Positions 29,095 through 60,390 of a stretch of 64,000 nt of DNA are shown in pieces. Under the pieces are notes generated by a model. The model saw only the letters and a list, made by a program, of their open reading frames with translations, was not told where the DNA came from and did not search any database. Source of the stretch: Eutreptiella sp. 'Long Island Sound 2002' (taxonomy: Eukaryota > Euglenozoa > Euglenophyceae > Eutreptiales > Eutreptiaceae); NCBI GenBank assembly GCA_964036045.1, contig OZ038385.1:3844001-3908000 (forward strand), given 5' to 3'. The first letter of the stretch is position 1; every line of letters starts with the position of its first letter. The translations under genes and the position numbers were made by a program.

Positions 29095-29410
29095 AAAGTA
29101 GCAGGGGTTATCATGGATCCCTTGGCATTTAAATGCAAAGAAGTGTTGTCGACGACGAAATGATTTGGGGGAGTTGAAAACAATTTTGATCTGGAGATCC
29201 CTGATTGGGGAAATCCTCTAAAACTTTTCACTGAACTTAGGAACGAAAAAGATATTACTTGGTGAACTGAAGCCTCTTAGTAGCCAGAGGCAAATAAAAG
29301 CCGAAGCGACCCTCTTTGTAGCGGCGAGCGAAATGGAATCAGCGCAAACTCTTCTATGAAAGGTGTTGTGGGACAACTTTCCGTTTAGTAAGACAAAATT
29401 ATTGAAAATA
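29095..29410 (+). pseudogene. rrl: Plastid-type 23S rRNA 5' fragment
   Basis: GACGACGAAATGATTTGGGG, GAGTTGAAAACAATTTTGAT, CTTAGTAGCCAGAGGCAAAT, TAGCGGCGAGCGAAATGGAA and GGTGTTGTGGGACAAC follow one another with the spacing of the first 300 bases of plastid 23S rRNA. Many substitutions are present and the match fades near 29410, so only the 5' end was transferred or survives. With the two tRNA remnants this is a nuclear insertion of plastid DNA, not a working rRNA gene. Confidence 0.88.
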
Positions 29411-30319
29411 ATCCCTTAAAAGGTGATAACCACCATGGTCTCATCTGGGCCTTCCATCCATGTCCGAATATTGTTTGGGTGAAATAGCTCTTTTCCTCCT
29501 GATCATCCTTTGCCTCCTTATTGTCCTCCTCGTCCTCCTCCGTTGCCAGTGCCTCCTCCTCCTCCTCCTCCTCCTCCTCCTCCTCCTCCTCCTTCTTCAG
29601 CAGGATAGACTTGCCCACCCCTCCTTACCCAGGCCCTCCTCCAGTATTTTCCACACCACAGACCAGGGTCTGTCTTCGTTTATACACCTCTTAGGCCACT
29701 CCGCTTTTACCACCCGAGGCCGCCTTGAATTTTCTTTTCTCCAAGCACAGGCTTGGGCCTATATCCATCCCCCTGAAAACATCCTGTCTGTCATGGATTA
29801 TAATTCATCTGTTAGATGCAATCAAGGGGCCAAACAGCCACCTTGTGTTGTTGGTTGCTTGCCTTGACTCCTTCCCTTTTGTTGCAGTACCTGGATGTCC
29901 GCATACACAACATTCTTCGGTGGTTGCGGTTTGATGTTCATGTTCATAAGGAGCCTTGGTAACTTTGCCATACACTCCCCCAAAATTGTGCTCTCTACAG
30001 CCATATTTGTGATTATGGAAGCTCTTGACGGTGCACTGTGTTCCAAACCGTTCCATTAGCGTTGGGCTTGGGACCACTTTATCCCGCGTGTAACCACCCT
30101 CCAGTTTCAGGGGGGGGGGGATTCGGGCTCAATGATTTGGGCAGGGGTAAATGAGCATAAACCAGGGCAAGGGTGTGCGGTTTGCTGTTCCACACTGTGC
30201 AAGGGCCCAGAAACAGCTTCCTTTTGGTTATTGTGCACTTGGAGTCATTTGGAAACCCAAAATATCTCAGAACTTTGAAAAAAAATTCAACCTTTGGACG
30301 AGGAGTGGTATGTCAGAGA
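29411..30319. other. Intergenic region right of the plastid insert
   Basis: It holds the CTC microsatellite listed separately. A minus-strand frame at about 29822-30046 carries a short Cys/His cluster (NHKYGCREHNF, then EECCVCGHPG). It is too short and isolated to annotate as a gene. Confidence 0.35.
29552..29595. repeat. CTC trinucleotide microsatellite (poly-Glu on minus strand)
   Basis: Thirteen to fourteen CTC units run without interruption. On the minus strand they encode a glutamate run followed by ALATEEDEEDNKEAKDD, so they could lie in an acidic exon of a minus-strand gene. No splice sites were confirmed. Confidence 0.75.
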
Positions 30320-47089: not shown

Positions 47090-48101
47090 GAGTAATCGTA
47101 AGTAGGTAACAATTATGTAATAAAAAGAATTTTGTTTTGGAGGCAATAGTGTGTGACATGCAACCAAAAGTAGAACCTATGAATCCTGACACTTCTTTTA
47201 AAAAAAAGAGGCAAAAATAGTGGCATGCCAACAAAAAGCAACCAAAGGTGGGAAGTCCCAATAAAAAAGTTATGAAACCATGAATTCTAGGTGTTAATTT
47301 GACAACAATATACATTTGTACTTCAACGAGCCAAAGGGGGTTGGCACAGCACTTGCACACCCATGGCCCCGTTTGGGGATGGACATGAATGGAATGGCAC
47401 ACGGCACATGATGTTTACAACTCCCCCCCAAATGCGCAAAGCACAAGGTTGAAGCAGATACATCCCACGGGATCACCTCACCCAATCTGCCCTGCCTTGG
47501 GACAAGTGGCACCATTGTATAGGGTTAGGCACGCATATATCAAACTTTCCCTCTTCTACTCCTGTTTACCTCACCTTCGCATGCCGCAGTGGCAGCAGAG
47601 AAAATAATTGATAGTTGCAGAACGTCATCGATGATGTGCCATGAGAAAAGCTAGGATTTTGATTTCAAACAACCCTTGTGCTCTTAAGGAAGCGCTCCCA
47701 AAGGTGCGGATTTCCATCACAACTATGGCGTCCTGGCTTCACGAAGATTGTCTAGGTCATGTTGTACGATTTGCCTTGCTAAATTTCATCGCAACCATTT
47801 GGGGAAAGTTTGAGAGGGGGGATTCGGAATGCAAAATCCACGAACAATGTCATGGTTATGCATCACTTTCTGAGTGTCTATTTTTTTTCGATTGCCCCTT
47901 CAGATGGACAATGTCGCACCACTAGTCAAAAAATAAGCCGTCCAGGACTAGTGGCATTTGGGCGCATTTCACCGAAATTTGAGCATCTACCTTGGTTGGC
48001 ATTGATCGTGCCACCTACGCCGTCGCCGACATTTCTCGTCTTTGCCGACTTCTAGTCCCATTTCGCAATTCCGACGTGAACGCGCCTATTTTCACGCTAC
48101 C
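47090..48101. other. Region between the TIR element and LINE ORF1
   Basis: This interval probably includes the LINE 5' untranslated region. A perfect 9-bp inverted repeat is at 47919-47954. Short frames at 47641-47925 show no domain. Confidence 0.4.
47919..47954. repeat. Hairpin, 9-bp perfect stem
   Basis: CCACTAGTC at 47919-47927 and GACTAGTGG at 47946-47954 pair perfectly around an 18-base loop. It sits about 150 bp before the first ATG of LINE ORF1 and could belong to the element's 5' untranslated region. Confidence 0.6.
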
Positions 48102-50810
48102 ATGTTCCCAAGACCATATACGCTCCTTGGTTGGTCCAATGCTTCCCAAACGCAAAATTCTATGGATATTGATGACTCCAAACATCCCACTTTGCCAAAA
48201 AATAAAAAACTTCATCCACGCTTGCCTAGCGGTTCTCCACTCACCTTTGGACAATACTCACATATTGACCAAGCGGCGCCTACGGCCCTACAGCGATGGG
48301 CTTCCGTTGAAAGCAACGCCGAAATCCTCATATCTCGAACACGAAGCATCAAAGTGCAAGGCAACATGGCGTATGATGCCAAGAAGCGAATCCACACGTG
48401 TGCCACGTTGCGAAAATTATGGGACACTTGCCAATGGAACCATGAGTTCAACGTTTCCGACAAAAAGAACTCCTTCACGGAACTCAACACCACTATCCCG
48501 AAAGGCTCGGGCTTCTACTCAAATTGTGCACACGAAGACTTGGCGCACGTCTATGATATCTTGCACATCCACAAGACCTTCCTAGTGTGCCCGGTGCCGT
48601 ACAACTACGTGGACCACGACTTAGGAACCACCGTAGAGACCGTGACGGATTGGGCGGCCTCCATAGGACACGCCCTTCAACTAGCCCGCTCGCGCAACGA
48701 AGAGTTCGAGGGATGGTTCATGTTACCGGCGCCCATTAAAAATTGCAATGCGGAAAATTGCTTGTTGGTTGACCCCCGTTTGCTTCTCACTCCCTTACGC
48801 CCCTTTATTACGCAGCGCTTTAGCTTCCATGATGCAAAGCAATGGTGGATCCCCGGCAACCAAAACGTTGAGAACGCCCAATAAATTTTGGGGAATGCTC
48901 TCGCCGTGCCATACATCGCCTACCGACTTCATTCCCAATCATGGTATGCTCCGTCTAAGCACCCGAGCGTCACGGTTGACCACTCCTCAAGCCTACGTCG
49001 CTTCGTACATCAAAGTACCAACTTGGATATAGAGCAAGCACATGTCATACTTCGATTTGACGTGCTACGAGAGATCATTGATCAACGAGAGCTCCCGAGT
49101 GACCAAGAAGACACCAACACCCGAAAGAAAGCGGAGCTAGGCAACGTGCGGGACTTCTACAAATGGTTGAACAATACGCTTGCACTGGACTTTGAGGGCG
49201 CGGCGACTACCACCAATTGCAAATATTATTTTGAGAACGGAGAAGCCCTTCGTGCACCACACCCAAATTATTATCGGTACGACTATACCATGGCTCCGGC
49301 TCTTGCAAACGAACTTATGTCCGTGGCTTTGGAGCATGGAGATTTCTTACAAGGGCGATTCTATGTGATTGAAGTGGCAAAAATGGTTGACCAACACTCT
49401 TTTTTTGTGAACCCGTCACGCAACGAGAGAAACCGCCACAAGGGAGAATTTACACCCACCGAGGTCATGAACACCCCCATGGGCCACATGATTGGAGGAC
49501 GAGGGCGCACCCGTGTCATGGGCACGTCAATCAAGAGCCGGGATAGCGTGATAGTCCGATTGGACCTTAGCAATACCCCAAGCGACGAAGGGCGCTCGCC
49601 TCTCTCTACCTTTGCATCTTTCCTCCACACTAATGGAGCGATGGTAATGTGCACCTCAAAGGACGGAGCGTTGATCACCTTCAATGCATTTGGACAAGGG
49701 GGCAAGCAGGAAGCTCACGCTAAATCTCCGCCAACCATGGTCTCTATTCCGCCGCCGATGCCTAGTCAGAGAGAGCCAAACGAAGTGGATGTCCAAGCGC
49801 CCAACACGACCTCACTTTTTGACATTCAATGTGCGGCGGGTCTCCTAGGCCCATTCACGCGGTTTGAACTCCACTCGAGATCCGAAAATCCTCCTATAAG
49901 CTTCTACTCCGTCACCTATGAGAAGCTCCAATCCGCTCAAATTGCCACGGGTTTTGCTATGGGCCCCATTTCCTTTCACCCGTCCCAACCTTATCTACAG
50001 GTTGACACACTCCTACACCTCGACCCCTCGGTGGCTGAGGAGGATCGCCCGGCGGAAGCACGAGTGCCAGCGGGCCTGAATGTCGGCGCGGGGGCCTTCC
50101 TCAAGGACTACATTGCCAACTACAAGGAGCATCAAACACTCCTACGCCCGCCTCGCCGCCCGCCGCGACAAGAAGATCGACAACCGGAGGACCTCACGGA
50201 GGAAGACCTCCCGGGCTTACGCATCATCCAGGACGTCATCGACATGACTATGGAGACCACCCTAATGGCCTACCTCGAGAAGCAGGAATGGGAGCGAGAG
50301 ACCCGAAGAGGCAAGCTGCACTACGGATGGAAGTATGTGGATGCCTCCCACACCCTCGAACGAGCGGAGGAACTCCCCACGGAGCTCATGAATCTCATCG
50401 ACAACCTCATGGACGCTAAAGACTCGGAGGACATCCCCCTGCTAGCGGTGCAGCCGAACCAAGTCAGCGTGAACGACTATGAACCTGGGGTGGGCATAGG
50501 ATGGCATAAGGACATCGATGACCTAGGCGACACTATCACCTCGATTTCACTCATGGGGGCTACCACCATGGAGTTCCGTAAAGGAAATGGCCCGGTGGTG
50601 AGTGTGCGGGTACCACGATACTCAGCCCTCCAAGTCACGGGAGAACTTCGAGAACAATGGCAGCATCAGGTGCCCTACCGCATGAGCGATTTGGTGGATG
50701 GGGCCGAAATCCCTCAGGACCGGCGAGTGGCGGTCATCCTTCGCAACGTGCAGTGTGCTCTGGACGCCGAACCCGACGCCGAAACTCAAGACGGCAGCGG
50801 GCAAGCTTAG
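48102..50810 (+). CDS. LINE ORF1 with C-terminal AlkB-type 2OG-Fe(II) dioxygenase domain (one in-frame stop)
   Basis: The frame from ATG at 48102 is interrupted only by TAA at 48882-48884 (NVENAQ, stop, ILGNALAV), giving about 900 codons. The first 800 codons show no domain I know. The last 130 codons are a classic AlkB fold. They contain VNDYEPGVGIGWHKDID (Asn-x-Tyr then His-x-Asp), ISLMGATTMEFRK, RYSALQVTGELRE, WQHQVPYR (distal His) and RRVAVILRN (the two arginines that bind 2-oxoglutarate). Relative to a residue 1 at 48888, the metal ligands are His540, Asp542 and His593, and Arg613 and Arg619 follow; all are intact. Known AlkB proteins remove methyl groups from DNA or RNA by oxidative demethylation. 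In an ORF1 it might repair or demethylate the element's own RNA. The stop may be a mutation; the domain identification is firm. Confidence 0.85.
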
Positions 50811-53800
50811 CGAACTGCTTCAACGCCTCGGCGTCCCTCAACCCAGCGCGCATCGTTTGAGCACCCCCCCTCCATCCTCTGAACCCCTCCGCCCCCGCCC
50901 CATCCCTAAAAACCCGCGACCTTCACGCTTGCCCGACCTGGCTTGCTTTGGTCTTGAGCCCCCTCCCGTGACCAGTTGGAGGCAAAGTAAGGGGTATGTG
51001 CGCCCAGCTGCAAAGCTCAACAACCCCCCGCCCCCCACGCTCAAAATCCTTTCACACAACCTGGAAAAGAAACCCCCCACCCCCTTCATTTTCCACCACC
51101 TACAAAAAGGGTACCATGTCTTGCTCCTCCAGGAGCTGAACGAAGAGCCTAGCCTCCACACATCCTTAGCCACGGAGGGAAAAAATGCAAAATTTTCACC
51201 AACATCAAGAAGAGAGAGAAAAAGAATGGCACTGCCATCGTGGTCTCTTCGGCATTGCGGCCCTACACAAAGTTTGTTCCGAACTCGGACAAAGATGGAC
51301 TCATGTGCTCGGTTGAAATAACCCTCCCGGGCGGCCCCCCCACACTCCTCACTTCTCTCTACTCTCCCCCACCCGCAATTACCAGGCGCCCCGTGATTGA
51401 AATCAACCTGTCGCGTCTTCTTTCCCGATACCCTTACCATGTGGTGGGAGGTGATTTCAACTGCATCCGCAATCCCCATCTAGACTCCTTGCACGCCGAC
51501 TCCAACCCGTGGGCCTGGGTCACTTCCAAAACATCGGGCAGTAACCCGTCATGGATCGATACGTGCCGACACATGCACAGCACTGCCCTGGGGTGGACCC
51601 GACCGGCGTCTAAGAACAGATTGAACTACATCTTTGCTTCGAGGAGCCTCTTCCATGACCAAAAAATTGCTGACGCTTCAATTCTCTATGGTGATTTCTC
51701 TACCAACCACCACCCTGTCACAGCACAACTGCACTCATCCCTCATCCCCACGCAATCCCCCCCATCCCCCCGTAAACGCTTCCGAAGGCTAAAGAAACAG
51801 GAATTGCTCCGTCTTCAAGGGGGACTGCAACCCCTCGAGAAATGGTGTGAGGACTTTAACAAACACCTCCATGACGTCCCGCCCTCTGACCTGGTCCCGA
51901 TAGTGGACGCCATACTCCGAGAGTGCTCGGAGGCCTACCACTCGATTACCACCCCGGCGGGAGGGACAGCCCCGTCCAAAATTCAGAAAGAATTCACCCA
52001 ATTGGCCAATGCCCTCCCCCCAGCCTCCCACCCCCGTTTTGGAGAAAAAATGAGGCAACTCAATGACTACCTCGATGAATGGCAGAAAGCGAAACAGAAA
52101 TCGGCCCGGACCGCGGTACACAGAGCGATCGTCCAGGGCCGCCAACTCAAGAGTGCCATCCAGAAACACCTCCAACCCCCGGATCAGGCTCCAATCTCCC
52201 TCAGGCGCTCTGACGGAACCCTTGCTACAGACACCAAAGAGGTTGCAAAGATGTTTTCGGATACACTCCTCCACTTGGGGGGTTCGCCTGACTACACCCC
52301 CCCCGACGATTTCACGGAGCGCCTCCTGAGCCACACCCCCTAGTGCCCTTCGGGCACAGAAACTCCCGAACATGACATGGTCAGAGTTTACCGACATCCT
52401 CCACTCGGCTAACCCGCGCAAGGCAGGAGGAGACGACCACACCAACACCTACCTGCTCTCCGTCCTCCCCCCCCACCTGCAGACGCTCTTCTTTCTGGTG
52501 GTAAATAGCTTCCTGCATGAGCCCCTGCCTCCCCACTGGACTACTGCCCAAGTATGTTTGATCTACAAGAAAAAATACCCCCACGACCCCGCAAACTACC
52601 GCCCAATAGCCCTTTTAAACTCTGTCTACAAGCTAGTGGCCCGACATGCCGCCTCTGCCCTCCAAACCTTCATCAGAGATCATTCCCTCATGCACCACAG
52701 CCAACACGGGGGCATGCCAAATTTCCGAACCATGGACCACCTTTTCCACGTCACGGCAGAAATCGCCCGAAGCCCCCAGGCATACCATTTTTACATCGAT
52801 TTTCACAAGGCCTTTAACAGCGTTCCCCATCCCACCCTCCGCCGGGTCCTCCACCACTATGGAATCCCGGCGGGGCTGGTAGACCTGATCAGTGGACTCT
52901 ACGCCCACCCCCAGGATGCCCCTCTTGTCAACGATGTCACACCCTACCATTACCTCCAAACCAGGGGCCTCCGCCAGGGCTGCCCCATGTCCCCTGTCCT
53001 GTTCATCCTTTATTCTAATGTGCTGCTCCATGCAGCCCCTCAACCCTCTCCTTTGGAGAGACCCGCCGAGACCTCTGCACACGCTTTCATCGATGACAAA
53101 TTGTACCGATTACCCTCCCAGACCTACATCCAAAAGTTAATTGACTTCTATGACACGGACGCCACGATATGGGGGCTCCAAATGAACTGTGACAAGTCAG
53201 AGGTGCACGCCCTGGGTGGCGTCCCACAGCATGACTTCCAGAGCCCAAGCGGCTTCACACTTTCTACTGTCGACCCGGATACCAAACAGCCACGGAAGGG
53301 CTACAAATACCTGGGGGTTTACATCTACAACGATAAGCACCCTCCGCAACTCCGACAACAAATACACTCGGAACTGAGCAACTACTTCGTACACCTCTCA
53401 CCGCTTCGCCTCACCCTCCCTGAGCTGGTTAAACTGGTGAATGTCCAACTGATACCGATCCTCACCTACCGCCTCATTGCCCACCCTTTTCTCCCCATCG
53501 AAATAGATGAGCTCACGGCAGCGGTCTGCAGAGAGCTTGCTACGCATGGCAGGATCTCGCCCTAAGTCTCCACTAAGGACATATACCAGCCACGTGCTAA
53601 AATCGGGCTAGGCCTCCGCCACCTGGGAATAGCGGTTCACAAGTCTTTTGTTGAGGCGGGACTAAGGTACCTGAACCAGGACGGACCCCCGGCCAGTTGT
53701 GTGGCAGTTAGAGACGCCCTCCTTGCGACACGGCAAAATGCCCTTCAAGATAGCTTCCTGGATGCGGCCAACCGCCCGAGTCTTCGATTCCACACCCCTC

Positions 53801-55653
53801 GACCATGGAACCCCTGCCTCCCCTGTGAGCTACACGAGTGAGAACGACTGTATGCTGCACCCCGAAATGCCCCCCCTTGCCTGGCCACGGTTACCAAAGT
53901 CTACAAAAAAACAGCCACCATTTGCTTCGACACCGGGGAATCCGCTACCATCACGGAACGGAGTAATTTCACCTTCACCCCCCCCAACACCCCTCCTCTC
54001 CCCCCGGGTGACATAACCCACTACCACCTTTTCCCACCCTTCTCTTCCCCGCAAACTCGCAACCCCGACATCCCGGTTCCTCTTCAAGCGGACCTCATGG
54101 ATAGCACCTGTGAAGGCCACTGGTTCCACCTGCCTAACCTCCGCCACGTTCTAAACCATGAGGATCTAATGGGGTGGGGGTGCATTCAGGCGGCTAACCT
54201 CGTCGCCGAGCTCCCCTTTGATGACACGGCGTGGATCTATACGGATGGAAGCTCGGGAGATGGGGGCCATGGCAGCGCCTTCGCTATCTTTTGGCAACAA
54301 CAGTGTTACGTCCTCTGCCGCTCGTCACCCTCACCCACCTCAGGGTGCTCCGAGCAATAGGCCATGGCAATGGCGTTAGCCCACCTCCCCAACATCCTCC
54401 CCAATACTCCGGTGGTGATCTTGGGTGATAACCTTGACACAGTCGAAGCGGTCAACCGGGCCCTCTCCAGCCCCCCCCCAGCGAGGCCGTCCTCTTACAC
54501 ACAGGGCACACGTGACACTGCCTACACATCCCTCCTCGCCCCCCTCCCCCACCTGATCCATGTGGCTTGGATCAAGGGCCACGCACACTTTATGGGAAAC
54601 GAGCTCGCGGACTATTTCTCAAAATGGGCCGCTCAAGCATTACTGTGGCACCCCTCCCTCCTACCCTCCCCCCCTGCGGGAGTAGTCACTAGTGGGGAGC
54701 TAGCCCTCATCTCAAAAATTCCGAAACACCACACCCGCTCCCTCTTCCCGACCCACCCACACACGCGCCTGCACTTCAACACCAGCGCAAGCTTTCTCCA
54801 ACAGAGCAGCTTTTTCTCGGCAATCGCATTCAAGTGGGTGTCAGGCACGTATGGTTGTCAGGACTACAGACCTCACTGTGACACCAGTGACCGAACATGC
54901 CCTAAATGTCAAGAAGTGCACCCAATGGATCCCGTCTCATTCTGCGCCCTCTGTCCCACGATGCAATGGTTCCAGCAGTGTCTCTCCAGCGCCTGGCCCC
55001 CCCCTTTTGACAAATTAGCACTCAAATGGTGGATAGCCAGCGACTGTGGGGACCGACGACTCGCTACCAGAACGCTCGTCCCAAAAACGCTCCACACAAC
55101 GCTTGCAACGTCCCCGTCAGGCAAGGACCCCGCTATGCATGCTAAGGACTTTGACAGCGCCCTGGTTAAACGCAATAGGGCGCTCACGTCACTCATCGAG
55201 GACGCCAACAAATTTCTCCACGACAACCCACCCGGGGCCATTGGCCCACCAGTGACCAGAAACAATTATTTTGATTCCCTGGGTGAATTCAGTACCTCCA
55301 GAGGCCATGCCCCCCGGGACCCGCCAAAATACGTTCCCCCCTCGGCCCTGCCTGCGGCGGTGTTGACACCCCCGAAACGCAAAGCCTCGGATCAACCACA
55401 GCGGAAAAAACGCCCCCCGCCCCCGGCACCGCCCAAGCCAGCAAAGCCCAGCGCAGCGCAACGCGCTCTGGACGCCTACCTGCAGCCTATTGGCCCCGGT
55501 CCCCCCCCCCCTCCTCCCCCTGCGCCACCCCGACGTGACGGACCCCAGGCGCAGCACAAAGGGCGAAAGCGCAGTGAACCCGCCCTCCCCCCGGCCACAC
55601 ACCCTCCTGATCCCAAACAGCCTCGGATCGACAGATTCTCCCCCCCGAACTAG
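50698..55653 (+). pseudogene. LINE ORF2 (endonuclease, reverse transcriptase, RNase H), broken
   Basis: The frame opens inside the end of ORF1. The endonuclease shows LKILSHNLEK, VLLLQELNEE, HVVGGDFNCI and FSTNHHPV. The last motif normally reads S-D-H, and here Asn replaces Asp. The reverse transcriptase contains PANYRPIALLNSVYKL, YHFYIDFHKAFNSV, LRQGCPMSP and AFIDDKLY, so the YxDD box is FIDD with both catalytic aspartates. RNase H keeps WIYTDGSSGD, VILGDN and WIKGHAHFMGNELADY. Between them is a Cys-x2-Cys...Cys-x2-Cys motif (CPKCQEVHP, FCALC) in the tail. Two one-base frameshifts and three stops interrupt the reading frame, so no full-length polyprotein can be made as the sequence stands. 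Most breaks fall in homopolymers or as single stops, which suggests recent decay or sequencing error. Confidence 0.85.
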
Positions 55654-57170
55654 CGGCCTGAACCTGTTGTGTGTCTCTCCTCATGCCTCCAGTAATTCCA
55701 CACGATGTAGCTAGCTAAACCACCCTGACCACAGCCGAAAGTACCCTCTGTTAGCCAGGCTTTGCTTACAGTTTCGAATGCACATCCAACTCTCATGATA
55801 TATCGCATATATCACCCCGGCGGACGCCCTACAGGATCTTGAGGCGCCGAGCACCCGAATTTGCATTGACCCAATGGCGTAAGGGGCATCCATCGGGTGA
55901 CTCGGCCTACTGGCTTCTGCTGTAAAGTAGTTTTGCAGTGTAAATTTGATCGAACAGTCTTCACCGGACTCAAAATGTGTCTACGTGCAAATGTCATGGT
56001 TCTGCGATCGACCCGAAAAAGGGGTTGGGCGTCAATTTGGTCATGCCGGACTTGTAGCTCGGTGGAATGTTAGCCGACCGAGCTAGTGGGCCAAAAGTCC
56101 GGCGATCCAAAGTCTCACCCCCCAACCACAGGTACCACGATGTGTTTTCGAGTGCACAACCGCACAACCACATATACGCGTCGTAGTTGCACATGTGAAT
56201 ATAGTGAATAATGTCATAATACATGTTCACATTACTTCGTCCCTGCATTGCCATCCCCAATACATGTACACAAGTGCCAATGCGTGATGACACGTATTTC
56301 TTCACGACCAGGAAATAAAAAAAGCACATTGGGCATGCCTTGTAGATAGGCTAAGTTGGTGGAACATTCCATGGAGACAACCCCAGCCCCAACCTTGGTT
56401 GCAGCGGCTTGGTGGCACAACTAGAGCAAGGACATCGCGAGATAGAACTCCGGGGAGAGAGTCGGCGACAATCTGAGAATTTTCGGTTGAGAATAGGATT
56501 GACTGGACACCCCCCCCCCCTCCGTCCCTCCCTCCCTCCAACCCGGGTTCCAAGACAAGCCAAGATAGGTCCCAAACGTCGGGCAATAGCACAGCAATGA
56601 ACGCCGTAACAAACAAAAGTGCTAACTTGTTAATTGTGGCGATGACCAACCACAAAGAGCTGCCGCCAAAGAGCTGCCGATGACAGACTTGAGACTCTCA
56701 AAGTGTCGCTGACTCTCTCATGTGCTGCCGGCCCTACCTCACAGTGGACATTGCGTGTAACCTTGCGGTAACCCCCTTAAAAAGGGCTTAGCCGCTTACA
56801 AACGCACGGCGACTTGGATTTGGGCGATTTGGGTCATAAATGGGTTTAGGGTAACCTCCCCGTGCATACTTAGCCCCCCCAGAAAGAACGATGCCCAAAT
56901 TTTGAGAATTTTGACCCCCCCTTCTTTCCGGAATGCCGCGTGCACTGATGGTATAAAAATAGGTTGGTTCATTTGAATCCCGCTGTTTTCCTTGTCTTGA
57001 TGCTTCTTTGGAACAAGGGAAACAAACAAGGGCAACTGGAAACGCAAAAGCGTTCGAGTGCATGGTTCCGTATGCGAACATGCACTATTAGTTGGTGGCC
57101 GGGGGGGGGTCGGCCACATTGTATTACGGCATGGCGTCATGTATCCTTTCCTCATGCACGAACTAGTTTA
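55654..57170. other. Intergenic between LINE and pogo element
   Basis: No gene is visible. The LINE 3' untranslated region should start here, but no A-rich tail marks its end. The strong hairpin at 56045-56103 and several C-runs (56509-56520) are the only structure. Confidence 0.4.
56045..56103. repeat. Two-part perfect inverted repeat (hairpin)
   Basis: GCCGGACTT at 56045-56053 pairs with AAGTCCGGC at 56095-56103. Inside it, TAGCTCGGT at 56055-56063 pairs with ACCGAGCTA at 56077-56085. The fold is a long stem with one asymmetric internal loop. It is not a tRNA. It may be a transcribed structure or an element end. Confidence 0.65.
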
Positions 57171-57420: not shown

Positions 57421-59232
57421 ATGCAGCGCTTCCTCACAAAGGGAGGCCAGTCCGTGAACGACGCTCTGGCTGCAGTGGTGTCGCAGTCCCAGAGCAAGAA
57501 GGTCTCCACCAGTTCTAAGGCCCGTCAATACAAGAGCTCAGCGCCGAGGACTTGGCTAGAGTGGACGCTGTCGCAAAAGTCCCTTTGTGTGCAACTGTTC
57601 CTGGAAGGTAACTACAACCACGTTGTGCTGCGTTACGGGTGTCAAGCGCCGCCCCTTAACACGCTTCGCACCTGGGCTGGCAAGGTGCAGGAGGGTGAGC
57701 CACTGGAAGAGTACGGCACCAACTCAGTTCTCAGCGGCACAGAGGAGGAGGCCATTCTGAAGTTCATCAAAGAGTTGAAGTATGAGGCTGCCGTGATTGA
57801 CCTGGACACCATTGCGGCGCTTGGAAGAACAGTCGCTGAGAGGTCTCGTGGGCCTGGTCTTCCTCATGTTTTGGACCGCCAATGGGCTGCAAACTTTCGT
57901 CGGAGGCACAAGATGGGTTGTCTCAAGAAGATCACGACTGAGCGGCTGCCTTCTACAGTGTCTGACTTAGCGCTCGACAACAAATGGAGACGTGAATTCT
58001 TGCACTTCGTTGAGCAGCCTCAAAAGTATGGTGTGCGTATCCTTGAAGGTGAACCCCAGTCGCTGCCGCCGTGGGCGCAGTTGGGCCTGGACGAGACACC
58101 CCTCCAGTACGCGCCCAAGTTGCGCGGAAGGTATGCAGCCGGAGAAAAACAGGTCAGACACTACAGCAGCGCTGACAAGCGACAGGCCACGGCCACGCCT
58201 GTGGTCAACCGTGAAGGCACCGTAAAGGTACTACAAGTGTTGCACAGAGAAAAGACAGGGCGCTGCCATGCGCGTCTCGACCTGCCTCAGGGCCTGCCAT
58301 CCTACATGCACGAAGACCACGCGGAGAAGAAGTGTCAGACTGGCGACACATTCAAACGCCTGATGATCAAGGTCGACACTGAAGTTGCGAAGGACAGACG
58401 CGACCATGGCGTGGCGCAGAATTACCCATGTGTCGTCATCATGGACTGGGTTGGAAGCCATCTCGACGATGACGAGTTGAAGCGCGTCGACGACGCTGAA
58501 ATAAGGCTGGTCAACTTATACTATTTTGTGGCGCGGCCACATATGTATGTTTTCTTTGGCCGCGCTCGTCGCAGCCATGTCAGCAATGTTGGCGATCAGG
58601 TCATCGATCCAGGCATGAGAGCATGGTTGCGCGACAGACTGAAGTGTCGCCACATTGACCATTGCCTAAAGATCCACGATGGACTGCTGCCAAAGCACTC
58701 CAAGCTGGATAGCAGCGAGCCTACCATGAAGGCGCTCCTTGTAACTTGGTTTGCTGAATGGGCTGCATCCCCTTTGACAACCACACACATTCTCAGCAGC
58801 TGGAACATGGTGTTTACAGAGGTGCCAGTGACAGAATCTGTAGATGATGTGGACCTCCCTTGCCCTTCAGCAGCCATCCCCATGCCTGCACCTTTGCTGT
58901 CTGTCGTTCCTGGTCATGTTTCAGATTCAGAGGAAGCCTCGGAGGGGCAGGCAGAGGCAGATGAAGCCTCTGGGGCACAGGTGGAGGACAACATTGACGT
59001 CCTGTCAGTCCCAGGCACACCACCTGTACAAAGAGCAGCAAAGAGGAGGGCTGAGACCCGGTTGGACAGACTTGCCAAAAGGTTTCGTGCTGCACCACGT
59101 GATGTACATGCTCAGTGTGCGGCCAGGGAGAACAGGCAAAGGGCAAGGGAGGCGCGGGAGGCAGTGCAGACTTCGGATGATGAAGGCACACTGAGCTGTG
59201 CAGTGATGCTTACCATGAGTGAAAGAGAGTAG
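57421..59232 (+). CDS. pogo-like DDD transposase, 603 aa
   Basis: ATG at 57421 opens a frame to TAG at 59230-59232. It is preceded by TTTTTCTGTCTTCAGTC, so a 5' untranslated intron may end just before the start. Residues 45-95 hold a first helix-turn-helix (TLRTWAGKVQ). Residues 150-172 hold a CENP-B-type second one (DRQWAANFRRRHKMG). The catalytic core shows LGLDETPLQYAP (Asp224), CVVIMDWVGSHLDDD (Asp342) and GDQVIDPGMRAWLRD (Asp396), matching the DDD triad and spacing of the pogo/Tigger group. The motif before the third Asp differs from the usual Q-P-L-D. The last 130 residues are acidic, then Arg-rich. The enzyme would excise and reinsert the element flanked by its 19-bp ends. With the intact ends this copy may be autonomous. 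Confidence 0.9.
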   Translation: MQRFLTKGGQSVNDALAAVVSQSQSKKVSTSSKARQYKSSAPRTWLEWTLSQKSLCVQLFLEGNYNHVVLRYGCQAPPLNTLRTWAGKVQEGEPLEEYGTNSVLSGTEEEAILKFIKELKYEAAVIDLDTIAALGRTVAERSRGPGLPHVLDRQWAANFRRRHKMGCLKKITTERLPSTVSDLALDNKWRREFLHFVEQPQKYGVRILEGEPQSLPPWAQLGLDETPLQYAPKLRGRYAAGEKQVRHYSSADKRQATATPVVNREGTVKVLQVLHREKTGRCHARLDLPQGLPSYMHEDHAEKKCQTGDTFKRLMIKVDTEVAKDRRDHGVAQNYPCVVIMDWVGSHLDDDELKRVDDAEIRLVNLYYFVARPHMYVFFGRARRSHVSNVGDQVIDPGMRAWLRDRLKCRHIDHCLKIHDGLLPKHSKLDSSEPTMKALLVTWFAEWAASPLTTTHILSSWNMVFTEVPVTESVDDVDLPCPSAAIPMPAPLLSVVPGHVSDSEEASEGQAEADEASGAQVEDNIDVLSVPGTPPVQRAAKRRAETRLDRLAKRFRAAPRDVHAQCAARENRQRAREAREAVQTSDDEGTLSCAVMLTMSERE

Positions 59233-59890: not shown

Positions 59891-60390
59891 GGGTTAGCTT
59901 TACATGGTTTGGGTTACGGCTACAGCTAGGGTCTACGCAGGGGTACCTGGGGGGGGGGGTGCGGGTTGACACGGCCAGACACAGCATATGATTTCGCTGG
60001 TTATGATCAGCGTTAGGGTGAGGGTTGGGGCTAGGGTTGGGGTCAGGGTTTGGGTTAGGGTTGAGCTTAAGGCTAGGGTTGTGTTTACGGTCAGCGTTGA
60101 GATTAGGGTAATTGTGTAGGTCGTTGGTTTCAATCTCTGCCTGATTGCTGTTGTAGTAGAAGAGTGGTTTCTTGAGTTTACGGTAAGGATTGAGGTTAGG
60201 TTTAGAGTGAAACTCATGAGATAGTGCAGAGTTTACATTGGATGTGGGATACAACCTATAGAAACATCAGGTACATTTCGGTTATACTTGGCGTTAGCAG
60301 TAGGGAGAGGCTTAGGCCTGCAGTTACACCTTAGAAAAGGTTAGGGCTGGGGTTAGGGTTAGGGTTGGGGTTGGGGTTAGGGTGAATGTT
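59891..60390 (+). repeat. Degenerate interstitial telomere-like (TTAGGG) tract
   Basis: The plus strand repeats variants of GGGTTA, GGGGTT, AGGGTC and AGGGTG. The clearest stretches are about 60012-60080 and 60338-60384 (GGTTAGGGTTAGGGTTGGGG). Short non-repeat segments interrupt it. The pogo element's right TA abuts the tract directly. It points to an old healed break or a subtelomeric origin, with a TTAGGG-type rather than TTTAGGG-type telomere. Confidence 0.65.

Follow-up and report, generated by a model that had tools for sequence, protein, structure and literature searches.

Why would a long interspersed nuclear element (LINE) carry a dioxygenase fused to the product of its first open reading frame (ORF1)? 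The question is raised by a 64,000-nt stretch of the Eutreptiella sp. 'Long Island Sound 2002' genome (GenBank assembly GCA_964036045.1, contig OZ038385.1, positions 3,844,001 to 3,908,000 of the forward strand; hereafter the window), where a sequence-only reading had reported an AlkB-type domain inside the ORF1 of such an element. By its sequence, the element is a LINE (a non-long terminal repeat, or non-LTR, retrotransposon) of ~8.1 kb whose ORF1 protein (ORF1p) closes with an AlkB dioxygenase, its ligands intact, preceded by a predicted RRM fold.

The AlkB domain of ORF1p and its predicted role

Profile searching bore out the domain assignment. The 640-codon frame at 48888-50810 matched PF13532 (2OG-FeII_Oxy_2) with an E value of 8.2e-13 and 49.4 bits over residues 478-616, against a curated cut-off of 31.2 bits, and one ORF1 from each of families A, B and C (see below) scored 53.2, 33.7 and 43.1 bits. 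The window copy has the complete Fe(II)/2-oxoglutarate (2OG) ligand set, with the His-x-Asp motif, the distal His and both Arg residues lying where they had been placed initially, although comparison of folds and families gives the domain a length of about 190 codons instead of the last 130 of the frame. Fold comparison identified the double-stranded beta-helix fold of AlkB proteins, with ALKBH8, Ofd2, NMAD-1, ALKBH6 and ALKBH7 as the closest solved relatives. By sequence, the best match in the PDB was ALKBH8 (7.8e-15), with S. pombe P8A3.02c (Ofd2) and NMAD-1 coming next. The substrates of these relatives vary, and 2OG-dependent oxidation of nucleic acid is the predicted activity of the LINE domain. 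That the nucleic acid in question is DNA, with the domain serving in target-primed reverse transcription to repair or demethylate either the newly made cDNA or the target site, would accord with the action of AlkB, ABH2 and ABH3 on DNA through the same fold and with the presence among the close matches of NMAD-1, named in the PDB as a DNA N6-methyladenine demethylase; however, the domain sits in ORF1 by the predicted RRM fold and not in ORF2 beside the endonuclease and reverse transcriptase (RT), and we regard a DNA role as distinctly improbable.

Just upstream of the AlkB domain, the model of a more intact homologue (L036) forms a beta-alpha-beta-beta-alpha-beta RRM fold with ten-residue means of 71-88. 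No Pfam RRM match was obtained in ORF1, and RRMs are common in LINE ORF1s anyway. When the modelled RRM and AlkB domains were submitted together to Foldseek, the best match was the RRM/AlkB part of human ALKBH8 (2.8e-17, 360 columns, root-mean-square deviation 12.6 Å), so that ALKBH8 (PDB 3thp/3tht) leads in both sequence and fold across this region. ALKBH8 is a cellular tRNA enzyme with a methyltransferase domain, and these matches could mean that the LINE domain acts in trans, in an ALKBH8-like manner, on host tRNA or mRNA, favouring translation or blunting RNA-based silencing. Yet the LINE protein differs in being transposon-borne, in having a linker of ~70 residues between the two domains and in stopping within about 15 residues of AlkB, with no methyltransferase match to Pfam in the three ORF1s; the C-terminal methyltransferase domain expected of an ALKBH8 orthologue is absent. 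An NCBIfam search returned nothing useful. LINE ORF1 proteins are, moreover, mostly cis-acting RNA binders, and we know of no host target, making action in trans unlikely.

We lean instead towards a reading in which ORF1p coats the RNA of its own element, the RRM helping to hold that RNA and the AlkB domain oxidising methylated bases on it, to the benefit of copying or evasion. ORF1p would bind element RNA in part through the RRM, and the AlkB domain would oxidise methyl or related groups there (for example m1A, m3C or m6A). The erased template would then let reverse transcription reach the 5' end, and/or the erased marks would leave the element RNA hidden from host reader proteins. Because methylation at the Watson-Crick edge of a base stops reverse transcriptases, an eraser carried on a template-binding protein would help full-length copying. 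We infer RNA as the substrate, the element's own RNA as the target and the benefit to reverse transcription; protection or demethylation of that RNA is made plausible by the RRM fold beside AlkB and by the position of both in ORF1. The sequence-only reading had also raised the idea that the domain counters methylation-based silencing by the host, a role that would be conceivable but speculative.

Copies, families and constraint

A single search of the host genome (2.28 Gb, 2205 contigs) with the AlkB domain as query provided the profile of copies. At least 151 matches were found (150 scored of 1587 first-look candidates), and a hand count that includes the window copy gave at least 101 near-complete family-A domains (at least 170 of 183 residues, at least 82% identity) on many contigs, 82 of them stop-free; three matches with the same score, one on C5 and two on C1230, could reflect duplication in the assembly. 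The remaining matches are fragments or of lower identity, down to 31%. From six loci fetched at length, five of them divergent, and from further copies, four families carrying the domain were distinguished (A-D), with the domains of B, C and D about 30-36% identical to that of A. Family B is represented by ORF1s of 903 codons in L031 and L032, with L034 and L045 as additional copies; family C by an ORF1 of 860 codons in L033, with L048 and L049; and group D by L035, L046 and L047, whose domain is 37-39% identical to that of C. ORF1 identity to the family-A copy L036 is 27% for L031, 26% for L032 and 27% for L033, with AlkB at the same end in each. A host AlkB gene that happens to adjoin a LINE was considered and rejected, given that ORF1 is homologous along its whole length and that AlkB is terminal in families A, B and C.

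The ligand residues are well kept in family A. Among 52 copies (30 top-ranked, L036, 18 lower-ranked and three subfamily copies), Tyr, the first His and the first Arg are present in all, Asn and the distal His in 51, and Asp and the second Arg in 50. His-x-Asp is the iron motif of family A and of the aligned family-B copies. The sequence-only reading had proposed testing whether other copies always have AlkB in ORF1 with intact ligands; the terminal position held in families A, B and C and the ligands in A and B, whereas the iron motif is altered in C and D.

Selection on the AlkB part of ORF1 was estimated from the ratio of nonsynonymous to synonymous substitution rates (dN/dS) by the Nei-Gojobori method. 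Contrasts between family-A subfamilies gave values of 0.068 (L038), 0.103 (L037), 0.148 (L039) and 0.284 (L044) for the domain and, in the same order, 0.082, 0.106, 0.228 and 0.312 for upstream ORF1, the values of 0.07-0.10 standing at dS of 0.8-1.0. Our view of selection rests on these contrasts: between family-A subfamilies the domain shows purifying selection, of roughly the same strictness as that on the remainder of ORF1. The dN/dS of 0.145 from the 30 top-ranked copies plus L036 was set aside, since ranking the copies by their protein similarity to the query biases this value downwards. With at least 101 near-complete copies on many contigs, four families and low subfamily dN/dS, the notion of an artefact or chance event, be it a misassembly or a decayed fusion confined to a single dead copy, can practically be dismissed, even though both ORFs of the window copy are broken; copy number and the four families refute a single-copy accident.

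Several observations nonetheless weigh against the proposal that ORF1p demethylates its own RNA. ALKBH8, the best match, is a tRNA wobble-uridine hydroxylase and not a demethylase, and the AlphaFold model of full-length ORF1 is poor (mean pLDDT 38). The iron motif is His-Phe-Glu in family C, and across C and D His-x-Glu occurs in L033, L048, L035 and L047; the remaining one of the three D copies has Asn-Ile-Asp. Because Glu replaces Asp in C and two D copies and the third D copy has Asn-x-Asp, AlkB activity may differ or be lost in these families. Constraint is also uneven. Low dN/dS, the other part of the check proposed at the outset, was seen in the subfamily contrasts and in family C (L033 versus L049, 0.081), but 18 hand-picked lower-ranked family-A copies gave 0.47, a value biased upwards and indicative of little constraint, and in family C the AlkB part has evolved faster than upstream ORF1 (0.032 for the same pair). 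The family-B pairs, which are few, appear less constrained, with 12.5 nonsynonymous against 4.5 synonymous changes for L031-L045, 9 against 11 for L031-L032, 7 against 6 for L031-L034 and 16.5 against 11.5 for L032-L045. The altered motifs, together with the rate difference in family C (0.08 against 0.03-0.05), are what one would expect if AlkB were kept as an RNA-binding or assembly module with catalysis secondary or lost, at least in C and D. Still, the Fe and 2OG ligands are retained in family A and in aligned family-B copies, and His-x-Glu is a working triad in some 2OG enzymes, so we think this reading quite unlikely.

Outside the host genome, tblastn confirmed no relative of ORF1 or the RT in viral contigs. 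ORF1 relatives in the protein database comprised only ENA records, taken as coming from the same or a near genome, and one short JGI contig, in a search that scored the best 7994 candidates by shared words among candidates limited by length, such that AlkB-bearing LINEs elsewhere are possible.

The element in the window and its 5' end

The element spans 8,125 bp and is flanked by a 16-bp target-site duplication with one mismatch between its copies (Table 1). ORF1 runs from ATG 48102 to TAG 50808, and ORF2, which lies in the +1 frame relative to ORF1 with a putative start at ATG 50698, overlaps its end, consistent with the claim that the AlkB frame precedes and overlaps an endonuclease-RT-RNase H frame.

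Table 1. Coordinates of the element and its parts within the window (UTR, untranslated region)
Feature	Position	Strand	Remarks
Target-site duplication, 5' copy AATGTCATGGTTATGC, then ATC, then element	47846..47861	.	16 bp, 1 mismatch vs 55990-56005
Element	47865..55989		8,125 bp
Spliced leader, exact 26 nt, element 5' end	47865..47890	+	Matches E. gracilis leader in PMC6242988
5' UTR	47891..48101	+	Contains predicted 9-bp hairpin at 47919-47954
ORF1, 902 codons + stop	48102..50810	+	In-frame TAA at 48882; 916-codon open homologue in L036
Predicted RRM fold of ORF1p	49770..49982	+	L036 homologue model; position transferred from L036 numbering
AlkB / 2OG-FeII_Oxy_2 domain of ORF1p	50196..50765	+	Limits transferred from L036 model
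His-x-Asp iron ligands	50505..50513	+	His 50505-50507, Asp 50511-50513
Distal His iron ligand	50664..50666	+
Two Arg, six residues apart (2OG and substrate side)	50724..50744	+	Arg 50724-50726, Arg 50742-50744
ORF2 (endonuclease, RT, RNase H; Cys/His-rich tail by eye), broken; start putative	50698..55653	+	L036 homologue
RT segment of ORF2	52372..53562	+	PF00078 2e-26
3' UTR and element 3' end	55654..55989	+	Alignment with L068; match stops at GTGCAA(A)
Target-site duplication, 3' copy AATGTCATGGTTCTGC	55990..56005	.

The window copy is a fossil, as both of its ORFs are broken: ORF1 has one internal stop, and ORF2, read against L036, has four in-frame stops (52341, 53563, 53839 and 54358) and two frame changes (one within 51150-51240, the other within 52344-52375). 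Only the RT of its ORF2 passed the Pfam cut-offs, with the endonuclease (0.035) and RNase H (0.0066) falling below them, while PF03372, PF00078 and PF00075 were all above cut-offs in L036, whose ORF1 is open and whose ORF2 frame is open for 1518 codons up to the end of the fetched stretch. ORF2 matched the solved structures of L1 ORF2p, R2 and an RT-like protein. Target-site duplications vary in length, at 17 bp in L036 (by eye), an exact 18 bp in L032 and 19 bp in L034 (one mismatch) beside the 16 bp of the window copy; none was found for L031 within the stretch fetched.

The element begins with ACTTTCTGAGTGTCTATTTTTTTTCG, an exact match to the 26-nt Euglena spliced leader; this sequence is given as the Euglena gracilis spliced leader, reported also in E. 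longa, in the available part of PMC6242988. The leader is likewise exact at the 5' ends of L031, L032, L033 and L036. In 20 family-A copies picked for a long frame or a high rank, examination of the expected 5' ends found the leader in 19 (10 exact, 9 with one change), the other being L086, and it was also present in family C (L089, one change; L090, exact) and family D (L091, four changes). The base before the leader is C in all 30 junctions inspected (24 TC, 6 AC), which come from L007, L031-L034, L036, L038, L069-L085, L087-L091 and the window, two of them (in L007 and L038) belonging to neighbouring elements in the opposite direction. In L032 the duplication is followed by AC and in L036 by AATC, and since neither is in the 3' target copy, these extra bases are not simply target sequence; they are possibly cap-derived or untemplated.

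The leader of L034 is two bases short and adjoins the middle of ORF1 (oriented position 1201), exactly after the TTTCTAG of its relatives L031 and L032; this copy also has its target-site duplication and, at its 3' end, a brief stretch of A residues. An internal-AG leader junction combined with a target-site duplication therefore indicates, on sequence grounds, that L034 derives from element RNA that was trans-spliced at an internal AG and retrotransposed, and thus that trans-spliced LINE RNA can be retrotransposed. In the full-length copies examined, ATT and then family-specific sequence come directly after the leader, and no AG stands ahead of ATT, such that re-addition of the leader at each round and inheritance as DNA are both possible. 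Taken with the intact-looking AlkB domain, the spliced-leader 5' end of sampled copies gives a hint that the element might alter chemical marks on its own RNA before that RNA is reverse-transcribed. An extended scenario, which we offer tentatively and judge rather unlikely, is that LINE RNA is trans-spliced like host mRNA, that RRM-AlkB strips its methylation including that of a modified leader, and that the RT then copies to the cap, the extra bases ending in C being a trace of cap reading. In that case the retrotransposon would be mending the template from which it is copied.

Right behind the leader, family A has a predicted hairpin when folded (also in L038), with arms CCACTAGTC...GACTAGTGG. 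By eye, family C (L033) has arms GCCAAATC...GATTTGGC and a similar loop; the minimum-energy fold pairs those arms differently.

Elsewhere in the window, a 380-bp piece of 23S rRNA lies at 29133-29512 (Rfam LSU_rRNA_bacteria, 69.5 bits), perhaps a plastid insertion, which would fit a plastid-bearing host; the stretch just before it (from 28945) resembles tRNA-Ala by eye, and ARAGORN called no tRNA in the window. Degenerate telomere-like GTTAGG/GGTTGG repeats occupy 60012-60383, a 603-codon open frame at 57421-59232 has by eye the look of a DNA-transposon transposase, and open frames at 14072-16191, resembling class II fructose-bisphosphate aldolase by eye, overlap a tandem array (154-bp unit, 5.2 copies, 96% matches).

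Comparison with known systems

Retrotransposons can be either hindered or aided by base methylation of RNA, and a LINE that keeps an ORF1-fused AlkB through several diverged families would provide a tractable system, in an alga that is not a pathogen, for asking if modified RNA bases are a limit on target-primed reverse transcription. To our knowledge, orchid Gypsy elements are the sole retrotransposons so far found to encode an AlkB of their own. Some plant RNA viruses carry AlkB domains and are likewise selfish RNA-based elements, differing in that they are viruses and not retrotransposons. Our literature search, which left most subscription papers outside its scope, returned no report linking AlkB with LINE or non-LTR elements, or Euglena with AlkB or retrotransposons, and the E. 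gracilis draft-genome paper (PMC6366073) contains in its main text none of the terms AlkB, transposable, retrotranspos or reverse transcriptase.

Among euglenozoans, the trypanosomatid Pr77 LINEs also have a conserved 5' end but, in the portion of PMC8190864 drawn on here, Pr77 gives unspliced transcripts, whereas the elements described here begin with a spliced leader. Diplonema papillatum, compared by description only, has roughly twelve genes of AlkB type along with numerous LINE-like ORFs, and the accessible text of PMC10161547 does not tie those genes to LINEs. Two precedents come closer, as far as the sections available of each report go. Phalaenopsis orchid Ty3/Gypsy elements carry a captured AlkB-family domain that retains its ligands and demethylates m6A RNA in vitro (PMC9289625), but theirs is an LTR element with an ALKBH5-like domain in a separate extra ORF, while here the element is a LINE whose AlkB forms the terminal part of ORF1, after a predicted RRM, and is closest to the ALKBH8 and Ofd2/NMAD-1/ALKBH6/ALKBH7 structures. 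SymbioLINE-Dnmt of Symbiodinium likewise has a nucleic-acid modification enzyme in a LINE ORF1 under purifying selection (PMC5890265), in that case a cytosine DNA methyltransferase, or writer, where the Eutreptiella element has AlkB, an eraser or hydroxylase.
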